Shown here in pieces: positions 41,671 to 46,977 of a DNA stretch of 64,000 nt. Position numbers and translations under genes: made by a program. The notes below the pieces were generated by a model that worked only from the letters and a program-made list of their open reading frames with translations, was not told the origin of the DNA and searched no databases. The first letter of the stretch is position 1; every line of letters starts with the position of its first letter. The stretch is from Candidatus Baltobacteraceae bacterium. GTDB taxonomy: Bacteria; Vulcanimicrobiota; Vulcanimicrobiia; Vulcanimicrobiales; Vulcanimicrobiaceae. The stretch covers positions 434,001 through 498,000 of the forward strand of contig DASXEW010000001.1 of the NCBI GenBank assembly GCA_036489885.1, in the 5' to 3' direction.

Positions 41671-41685
41671 TAAAGGAGCTAGCAC

Positions 41686-42282
41686 ATGACACAAACTGTT
41701 GACGGACATTCAACCGCTAGCCAGATCCACTGGCGCACGTCCTTCGACGCCGCGCTCGATGAGGCTCGGAAGACCGGAAAGCTCGTACTACTGGATTTCT
41801 TCAATCCGGGTTGAGGCGGGTGCAAAGCGATGGGTGCCGTGACGTACCCTCAAGCCGCTGTTCGCGAGATTCTCGAGCGCGCGACGATCCCGATTCAGTT
41901 TGACAACACCGTCGACGCAGCACAACCGGTCATAAAGCGCTATCACCACGTCTGGACGCCCGACCTTCGCATTCTGACGGGCGACGGCGACGAGCTCTAT
42001 CGCTGGAACGGCTATTTACCGCCGGCTGAGTTTGCGGCGCAGCTGCTTGCGGCCCTCGCGCAGGCACGCTTACGGTTGCGCGAGTTCGATGCAGCGATTG
42101 CGCTCTATGAAGAAACACTCAAGCTGTTTCCGACTTCGATCTGTGCTCCTGAAGCGCAGTATTTCTTGGCGGTTGCAAACTACCGGAAATCCGGCGAAGC
42201 GAGCGATTTGCTAAGAGGCTGGCACCGGCTCGAAGGGCGCTATCCCCTTACGGAGTGGACCGTCAAGCAAGACTTTCACTAG
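41686..42282 (+). CDS. Thioredoxin-fold selenoprotein with U-G-G-C redox motif
   Basis: One frame runs from ATG 41686 (after AAGGAG) to TAG 42280, interrupted only by TGA at 41812-41814. Across that TGA it reads K-L-V-L-L-D-F-F-N-P-G-[TGA]-G-G-C-K-A-M-G-A-V. The surroundings are those of a known thioredoxin-like family (D-F-x-x-x-x-C-x-x-C-K-x-M). The TGA thus stands exactly at the first active-site Cys, giving U43-G-G-C46. A SECIS-like hairpin follows. The downstream half carries a TPR-like tail (A-I-A-L-Y-E-E-T-L-K-L-F-P). It is predicted to be a 198-residue cytosolic thiol oxidoreductase. Without Sec decoding only a 42-residue stub would form. Confidence 0.88.
41827..41855 (+). promoter_or_regulatory. 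Bacterial-type SECIS element of the U-G-G-C selenoprotein
   Basis: Starting 17 bases after the TGA, GGGTG (41832-41836) pairs with TACCC (41845-41849) around the loop CCGTGACG. The outer bases GCGA/TC-GC extend the stem with small bulges. The apical loop holds G-T at +25/+26 from the TGA, inside the 16-37 nt window of known bacterial SECIS loops that SelB reads. Confidence 0.65.
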
Positions 42283-44603: not shown

Positions 44604-46226
44604 CTAGTGCCCTGCGAGATAGCGGTGGATTAGAGCGATCGCCATGCTGCCTTCACCGACGCTGGCTGCGACGCGTTTGATCGAGCCGGCGCGGACATCG
44701 CCCACGGCAAAAATTCCCGGCTCGCTTGTCTCAAGAATGTACGGATGCCGCTCGAGCGGCCAGTGGCCGCTCTTCATGACATCCGATCCCGTCACGACGT
44801 AGCCGTCCGCATCGCGTTCAATGGAAGCGGGCAGCCATGCGGTCTCGGCGTCGGCGCCGATCAGAATGAATATCGCTGAGGCATCCCGCCGGGTCGTCTC
44901 TTTCGTCACGTTGTCGACGACTGTTATTGCTTCCAAGTGATCCTCGCCGATTGCCTCAACGACCTCGGCGTGCGTCTCGACGCTCACGTTCGCCTTCGTC
45001 TTCAGTTGTTCGATGAGGTAGTGCGACATGCTGCTCGTCAGAGAATCGCCACGAACGAGCACCGTAACCGAGCGTGCAAAATTCGAGAAGTTTATGGCCG
45101 CCTGGCCCGCGGAGTTACCGCCGCCGACGATAAAGATGTCCTTCCCTTGGATCGAGCGCTCCTCGCCCGGAGCGGCGCCGAAAAACACGCCGCGGCCTTG
45201 CAGCGCGGTTAGTGACGGCACGTCGAGCCGCCGCCAAGCGACGCCCGTTGCAATGACGATCGTCTTCGCGCAGACGTGATCTCCGCCGTCGAATTTCACA
45301 ACCCGCTCGTCGATGTCGAGACTTTCGACGCAGCGCGTCACCACGATCTCAGCGCCCAAGCGCGTCGCTTGTTGCAGCGCGCGGTTGGCAAGCTCATCGC
45401 CCGAGATGCCAAACGGAAACCCTAAATAATTTTCGATGCGCGACGAGGTGCCGGCCTGACCGCCCGGCGCCTCTTCCTCGATCAGGATCGTCGAGAGGCC
45501 TTCGGATGCGCCGTAAACTGCCGCCGCGAGTCCCGCAGGGCCGCCACCGACGATCGCGACATCGTACGTTTGCGTTCTCGGGAAAACACACAAGCCGATC
45601 GCAACAGCGAGATCGCGGATGGAAGGTTCTGCCAAGAGCGTTCCGTCGCGCAACCGGACGATCGGAAAGCGCTGGTTCGGCGTCGTCACCGTTTCATCGG
45701 GGATGCTCCAATCGAACTCGATGGAATTGCGCCGCAAGAATTCTCGCAGCTCATGTCCCGCAGCATTGTATTGCGGCGCGATAACGCCGAGAATGTGGGA
45801 TGGAGCCGCGGCGAGCTCTTGCAGTCCCTCCACGCGCTCCAGCGCCACGGCCGTTAGGGATGCGGCGACCTCCGGTGCCGCCGCCGAGACCGTACGAAAA
45901 TCCTTGAGCTCGATGCGCATTACACGTGACGGAACGGTTGCACGGAAGTTCGCGAGCGAAGGCGTGTCCAAGACGACGGGAACCTCGCCGAACGTCTCGC
46001 CGGCGTCGCGCACCCCGATCACGCGCTCGACGCCGTCGACGAATTTCGTTCCCTCGATGTGTCCCTCAACAGCAATGTAAAACGCGCGGCGTGGCTCACC
46101 TTCGCGCAACACGTACTCGCCGGTTTGCAGCCGGATATCCGCACTCGTGCTGGCTAAGTAGTCCAGCTCTTTGTCGGCAAGTGAGGAGAAGAGCGGAATG
46201 GCCCGCAGCTCGTCGCGCGTGAACAT
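44604..46226 (-). CDS. Thioredoxin reductase-like flavoprotein with cyclic-nucleotide-binding domain
   Basis: The protein of about 540 residues has three parts: an N-terminal cyclic-nucleotide-binding domain (about 10-125; L-R-E-G-E-P-R-R-A-F-Y-I), a glutaredoxin-like linker (about 145-215) and a TrxR-type flavoprotein (about 225-535). The last shows the FAD motif V-G-G-G-P-A-G-L-A-A-A, V-G-G-G-N-S-A-G-Q-A-A, and F-A-V-G-D-V-R-A-G-S. The C-x-x-C redox pair of real thioredoxin reductases is missing; that loop reads G-V-F-F-G-A-A-P-G-E-E-R-S. It may therefore reduce some other partner, perhaps under cAMP control. ATG 46226 was chosen; an ATG at 46271 is possible. Confidence 0.88.
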   Translation of the reverse strand: MFTRDELRAIPLFSSLADKELDYLASTSADIRLQTGEYVLREGEPRRAFYIAVEGHIEGTKFVDGVERVIGVRDAGETFGEVPVVLDTPSLANFRATVPSRVMRIELKDFRTVSAAAPEVAASLTAVALERVEGLQELAAAPSHILGVIAPQYNAAGHELREFLRRNSIEFDWSIPDETVTTPNQRFPIVRLRDGTLLAEPSIRDLAVAIGLCVFPRTQTYDVAIVGGGPAGLAAAVYGASEGLSTILIEEEAPGGQAGTSSRIENYLGFPFGISGDELANRALQQATRLGAEIVVTRCVESLDIDERVVKFDGGDHVCAKTIVIATGVAWRRLDVPSLTALQGRGVFFGAAPGEERSIQGKDIFIVGGGNSAGQAAINFSNFARSVTVLVRGDSLTSSMSHYLIEQLKTKANVSVETHAEVVEAIGEDHLEAITVVDNVTKETTRRDASAIFILIGADAETAWLPASIERDADGYVVTGSDVMKSGHWPLERHPYILETSEPGIFAVGDVRAGSIKRVAASVGEGSMAIALIHRYLAGH

Positions 46227-46278
46227 TTTTTGGCGCTTCGCCGAGGCAATGACCTGCCTCCCGCTAATCATGGTGTGG

Positions 46279-46977
46279 ATGCCGGATAAACAAATAATAG
46301 CGATTGGTGGTCGCGTGGGCCAGCCCGGCGACGGCGATACGAGAATTGAACGCTTCATACTCGAGTCGTCCGGTAAACGGGCGCCCCACGTTTGTTTTGT
46401 CCCGACTGCCAGCGGTGATAATGCCGAGTTCATAAATCAGATTCAATCCACATATACGGGCCTCGGCGTCAAGGCCGACGTGCTTCGATTCTTCGATCGC
46501 ACGCCAGCCGATTTGCCGGAATATATGTCGAGCTTCGACATCATTCAAGTCGGCGGCGGAAACACGAGAAGCATGCTCGCAGTCTGGCGTCACTGGGGTC
46601 TCGATGTACTCGTTCGGCAGACGTGGGAGAGGGGCGCACTCTTATGTGGTTCGAGCGCCGGCTCGCTGTGCTGGTTTGAAAACGGACTGACCGATTCAGT
46701 TGCCGATTCCTATACGGCGATGGACGGTCTTGGCTTTATCAGCGGAAGCAATTGTGTCCATTACTTTGCCCCGGATCGCCGTGAGACGTATCACGCCCTT
46801 ATTGAAGGCGGCGAGTTGTCGCCGGGCATTGCATGTCCAGATGGTGTTGCGGCGCACTACCGCGGAGACAAGTTGCTCCGCGTGGTTAGCTGCACGCCGG
46901 ATCAGTCTGCCTATTACGTCGAAAAAGTGGATGGAGAGATCGTGGAATCAGCGCTTCCCACCACGGTCTTGAAGTAA
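46279..46977 (+). CDS. Peptidase E-like (S51 family) serine peptidase
   Basis: The 232-residue protein has the S51 nucleophile in L-C-G-S-S-A-G-S-L-C-W-F near 120 and the G-G-G-N-T-R motif before it. The V-G-Q-P-G-D-G start and the ending with S-A-Y-Y-V-E-K fit the peptidase E/cyanophycinase fold. Peptidase E removes N-terminal aspartyl residues from dipeptides. ATG 46279 or ATG 46270 could start it. It diverges from the flavoprotein gene across 52 bases and converges with the ketopantoate reductase gene with no gap. Confidence 0.87.
   Translation: MPDKQIIAIGGRVGQPGDGDTRIERFILESSGKRAPHVCFVPTASGDNAEFINQIQSTYTGLGVKADVLRFFDRTPADLPEYMSSFDIIQVGGGNTRSMLAVWRHWGLDVLVRQTWERGALLCGSSAGSLCWFENGLTDSVADSYTAMDGLGFISGSNCVHYFAPDRRETYHALIEGGELSPGIACPDGVAAHYRGDKLLRVVSCTPDQSAYYVEKVDGEIVESALPTTVLK

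Follow-up and report, generated by a model that had tools for sequence, protein, structure and literature searches.

Among predicted bacterial selenoproteins, the family listed as 'thiol:disulfide interchange protein' carries a PF13098 domain and a UxxC motif, with WP_011366075.1 as its reference (PMC13188914 Table 1; PMC9312934). The same family is also named Trx-like 2, with the domain cd02953 (PMC2398784), and was reported from Geobacter metallireducens, G. uraniumreducens and Syntrophus aciditrophicus (PMC1794560). Here we describe a gene from a 64,000-nucleotide stretch of DNA (the window) of a Candidatus Baltobacteraceae bacterium, a member of the Eremiobacterota (Vulcanimicrobiota in current NCBI taxonomy), in which an internal TGA is, from comparison of sequences, almost certainly read as selenocysteine (Sec) to give a small thioredoxin-like enzyme. 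This kind of bacterial selenoprotein is already catalogued and the present gene is a well-supported further member of it; what is new, as far as the sequences can tell, is the phylum, a little-known one of soil, the UGGC branch, and the comparative support for the hairpin that follows the codon. The collection of papers searched yielded no Eremiobacterota paper that mentions selenocysteine as well.

The gene and its predicted product

The gene starts 15 nt past the stop codon of the preceding gene, and its features, all on the plus strand, are as follows.

41672..41678, + strand: Shine-Dalgarno-like AAAGGAG, 7 nt 5' of the ATG (sequence reading)
41686..42282, + strand: predicted selenoprotein gene, 198 residues and a TAG stop when translated with TGA as a residue (Sec)
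41719..42021, + strand: thioredoxin-fold domain of DsbD-gamma / Thioredoxin_2 type, about residues 12-112 (PF13098; sequence and structure matches)
41812..41814, + strand: in-frame TGA, predicted Sec43, residue 1 of the U-G-G-C centre (homologue codon comparison)
41821..41823, + strand: TGC, predicted resolving Cys46 of the U-G-G-C centre (family-invariant)
41832..41849, + strand: putative bacterial SECIS hairpin, GGGTGC, loop CGTGAC, GTACCC (bSECIS rules and conservation)
42022..42279, + strand: C-terminal helical TPR-like domain, about residues 113-198 (weak TPR matches, four model helices)

Translated with TGA as a residue, the frame reads MTQTVDG...LLDFFNPG-U-GGC-KAMGAVTYP... and contains one internal TGA only, at 41812. 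The original prediction had placed this single TGA exactly where the first Cys of a C-x-x-C would stand, and both the frame and the motif FFNPG-U-GGC-KAM bear that out.

The first part of the protein matched PF13098 (Thioredoxin_2) at 41.7 bits against a cut-off of 27, a domain search gave weak TPR matches in the final third, and the closest solved relatives by sequence were a Bacteroides disulphide-isomerase-like protein and DsbD-gamma. Structure prediction from the single sequence was poor (pLDDT 42), and we used instead an alignment-based model (pLDDT 88, pTM 0.84), which shows a thioredoxin fold with four helices C-terminal to it. In structural comparison the first part matched DsbH, DsbD-gamma and thioredoxins, and the second part matched TPR chains such as BamD and YbgF. 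Residues invariant in the family include position 43 (Sec or Cys), G45, C46 and W90-T91-P92, of which P92 is presumably the cis-proline expected of the thioredoxin fold. Given that no signal sequence was evident by eye at the N-terminus, and that many homologues start directly with M-I-x-W, the protein is probably cytosolic.

What the domain hits and structural neighbours suggest is a disulfide reductase; the peroxidase-like site named as another option in the original prediction is conjectural. Taken together with the codon, we consider it very probable that this Eremiobacterota gene has a Sec-decoded UGA, its thioredoxin-fold product most likely reducing client disulfides in the cytosol. In such a mechanism Sec43-Gly-Gly-Cys46 would cycle between the selenol/thiol and selenenylsulfide forms: Sec43 would attack the client disulfide, the mixed selenenylsulfide would be resolved by Cys46, and a thioredoxin reductase would re-reduce the enzyme, the TPR-like helices perhaps choosing the client or partner protein.

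A selenoprotein whose main job is something other than general disulfide reduction, either a thioredoxin-TPR protein that acts like a chaperone or a peroxidase-type enzyme devoted to a single partner, is the alternative that survives best. The TPR-like character of the C-terminal domain fits it, as does the presence of E. coli YbbN (3qou) among the Foldseek matches over both domains, though with an rmsd of 11, and the five Sec paralogues of one Desulfomonile genome suggest specialised clients. Against these, a UxxC centre with DsbD-gamma as nearest relative is the classic layout of a disulfide reductase, and we regard this alternative as rather unlikely.

The surroundings of the gene do not single out a pathway for this putative reductase. 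No neighbour of the gene is conserved across the phylum, the neighbours varying from genome to genome (several ORFs called in this comparison are antisense artefacts), and a particular pathway is thus without neighbour support. An exported TPR gene does precede the gene in the window, and its place there had been noted as unexplained; it was not found beside the homologues, and with the linkage absent from relatives there is no functional association to account for. The small TPR-like domain of the selenoprotein is its own, apart from this exported neighbour. A search for a plasmid match found none. Elsewhere in the window, 2.3 kb from the gene, positions 44604-46433 of the minus strand hold a 609-aa ORF with a cyclic-nucleotide-binding domain and a thioredoxin-reductase-like domain. 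In four Planctomycetota loci (L074, L077, L078 and L079), three of them from Brocadia, a gene that we named pirin-like from its sequence by eye lies downstream of the selenoprotein gene.

The TGA codon across homologues

Homologues were compared at the codon itself, which was read directly in every fetched locus. Full-length homologues among 60 relatives carried TGA there without exception (14/14), and in 149 genomes of the phylum an in-frame TGA was present in all 37 matches whose alignment to the family profile extends to either side of the codon, one further match, outside the 37 counted, being a fragment that lacks the codon. Two weaker matches in the phylum (63-66 bits) have no stop; they cover the thioredoxin domain only and, judging by that coverage, are probably other proteins.

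Beyond the phylum, TGA-bearing members of the family turned up in Brocadia and in one more Planctomycetota genome, and every fetched gene from Eremiobacterota, Brocadia and Desulfomonile has TGA at the codon. The order of Geomonas gave a family match in 49 of 141 genomes, about 30 copies having an in-frame TGA and about 20 having none; the fetched genes of this order had TGA in nine cases and TGC in three. Overall, TGA was found in 47/47 distinct Sec homologues and TGC at the same column in 3 Cys homologues, these being genes of shared ancestry whose counts are not independent events. The centre is UGGC in the Eremiobacterota branch and UIGC in the other branch of the family.

One Desulfomonile genome (G151) holds five family copies with an in-frame TGA (L080, L115, L116 and further matches). 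The family also appears in public records titled Proteobacteria and Bacillota (L055, L076); a genome search placed the contigs matching these (G046, G055) in the phylum of the window, and the record titles look wrong.

In a tree of the family, the three Cys copies, Geomonas included, group in one clade (100/100) next to Sec genes from the same order; every branch apart from this clade carries Sec. The simplest reading of the sequences would be one Sec-to-Cys change, the tree being midpoint-rooted, with a root that does not prove the direction of the change.

These comparisons bear on whether the TGA might truly terminate translation, or be a nonsense mutation of recent origin, leaving either a pseudogene or two proteins, one of them from the downstream ATG at 41830. 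An ordinary ORF finder does report only a 150-aa ORF, from that ATG, and standard annotation therefore probably misstarts or truncates the gene, as standard gene calling would such genes in Eremiobacterota genomes generally. The alignment of homologues, however, shows the protein conserved on both flanks of the TGA, a split there would cut the thioredoxin domain at its active site, and the TGC homologues are continuous proteins. With the same TGA kept in dozens of genomes and the protein conserved on either side of it, the stray stop that the original prediction had argued against is contradicted, and a real stop of any kind is very improbable. An error of base calling at the codon, which would have undone the prediction, is likewise ruled out by conservation of the TGA across dozens of separate genomes.

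The hairpin and the selenocysteine machinery

The bSECIS model allows 16-37 nt between the TGA and the loop, a loop of 3-9 nt and a stem of 4-16 bp, and it places a G among the first two loop positions and sets an energy limit of -7.5 kcal/mol (PMC13188914). The window RNA GGGUGC-CGUGAC-GUACCC, at +18 to +35 after the TGA, agrees with all of these rules, with a spacing to the loop of 23 nt, a loop of 6 nt with GU within it, a stem of 6 bp, the G in position, and an energy of about -8 to -9 kcal/mol; the hairpin with an apical GT predicted at 18-35 bases after the codon is thus present and fits the model.

Taken alone, this hairpin is weak evidence for a SECIS, because a conforming hairpin follows 110 of the 1562 TGAs in the window (7%) and a 60-nt fold of the region shows no excess stability (z 0.05). 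The minimum-energy fold of these 60 nt of the window's own sequence is a different structure, a point against our best explanation. Applied to the rest of the window, the hairpin and frame filter retains six further TGAs, whose flanking peptides contain no evident redox motif.

Comparison among homologues is considerably more informative. All six stem pairs form in 47/47 distinct TGA genes against 2.2 expected under synonymous codon choice, an expectation obtained by drawing synonymous codons at the frequencies of the compared genes and, these genes being related, a guide and not a probability. It is the same-codon TGA together with six of six pairs in all 47 Sec homologues, against 2.2 expected, that takes the evidence beyond chance. 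The loop is NGUNNC in each of the 47, and the stem starts 17 nt past the TGA. Where Asp GAT has become Gly GGT, the opposite Tyr codon has changed from TAT to TAC in five of six genes, and in the sixth a G-U pair is formed; carriers of the linked GGT/TAC change are the window gene, two further families within the phylum (L076, L032) and members of the Geomonas order (L122, L128). The Tyr change is at a synonymous site, and such linked changes were seen at one stem pair. In the three TGC (Cys) genes just 2-4 of the 6 stem pairs are left.

The comparison of TGA with TGC homologues that had been proposed as a check therefore separated the Sec genes, which have TGA and an intact hairpin, from the Cys genes, which have TGC and lack the hairpin. 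Judged from these alignments, the SECIS hairpin is under selection, and the family offers a clean natural test of SECIS constraint, with linked pair changes in Sec genes and the hairpin gone with Cys. The comparison across genomes supports the use of selenocysteine in an Eremiobacterota redox enzyme.

The original prediction had also depended on finding selA, selB, selC and selD in the genome, and profile searches found all four above curated cut-offs: selA (503 bits against 268), selB (292 against 242; just 3' of selA and in the same orientation), tRNA-Sec (74.8 against 47) and selD (375 bits). Given that the TGA and hairpin are conserved and the Sec machinery is present, the ribosome would decode UGA codon 43 as Sec with the help of SelB and Sec-tRNA, which the hairpin at 18-35 nt past the codon would recruit. 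Since selA is nearly universal in the relatives (51/60), comparing the presence of the selenoprotein gene with that of selA is uninformative. One carrier genome (G052) has neither selA nor tRNA-Sec above cut-off, which may be an assembly gap.

The selD of the genome itself (L048:1501-2427) has one in-frame TGA and is probably a selenoprotein gene too. The gene just upstream of selA and selB codes for a thioredoxin of the classical type (WCGPC; L001, about 1155-1487), and a thioredoxin-like match also lies immediately before selA in several relatives (G001, G009, G021, G049).

The least probable alternative, and a very improbable one, is that another code or readthrough places a standard residue (Trp or Cys) at the TGA. 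What speaks for it is the open frame, a sign that the codon is read through; against it stand the hairpin, which TGA genes keep and TGC genes have lost, the full Sec machinery of the genome, and the use of TGA as the ordinary stop of other family homologues (e.g. L021, L022, L023).

Placement among known selenoproteins and thioredoxins

We file the selenoprotein with the thiol:disulfide interchange kind because its domain, motif and taxonomic range fit. It shares with Trx-like 2 the Thioredoxin_2/DsbD-gamma domain (PF13098) and a Sec in the first position of UxxC (U43-G-G-C46), and Trx-like 2 was reported from Geobacter, where the present family also occurs; it differs in the U-G-G-C of the Eremiobacterota branch, the TPR-like C-terminal domain and the new phylum. 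Within the Geomonas order, the PF13098 matches with TGA in 17 genomes fell into two groups, the present family and a set of shorter ones resembling the known Sec-thioredoxins. That the protein belongs to the very family of the WP_011366075.1 reference is therefore probable.

Other described selenoproteins were tried as assignments. The VPGUxxT thioredoxin-like selenoproteins (NF041383, NF041382) also have a thioredoxin-like domain with Sec after P-G, but the protein reached 41.2 bits against a cut-off of 275 for NF041383, and its family has UGGC or UIGC with an invariant Cys46, not UxxT. TsoB, a rhodanese/DsbD fusion-like selenoprotein (NF045694), gave 28.3 bits against 805 and matched only the C-terminal part of the 572-position profile. 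Other NCBIfam models of thioredoxin-like selenoproteins scored far under their cut-offs.

Among solved proteins with a named function, the C-terminal domain of DsbD (DsbD-gamma; 1uc7, 2fwh) is the best-supported relative, with the same fold and the same position of UxxC/CxxC. DsbD-gamma is an exported part of a membrane protein and has two Cys, whereas the protein described here is stand-alone, probably cytosolic, predicted to contain Sec, and extended by a helical C-terminus. E. coli YbbN (3qou) likewise joins a thioredoxin fold to TPR helices, but it is larger, lacks Sec, and superposes poorly over the two domains (rmsd 11). It is conceivable, and we put it forward tentatively, that the thioredoxin-TPR selenoproteins stand apart from the catalogued family as a separate one, acting in the cytosol as Sec reductases for particular clients, with a UGGC branch characteristic of Eremiobacterota, five copies in a Desulfomonile genome, and a Sec-to-Cys change in one lineage of the Geobacteraceae.
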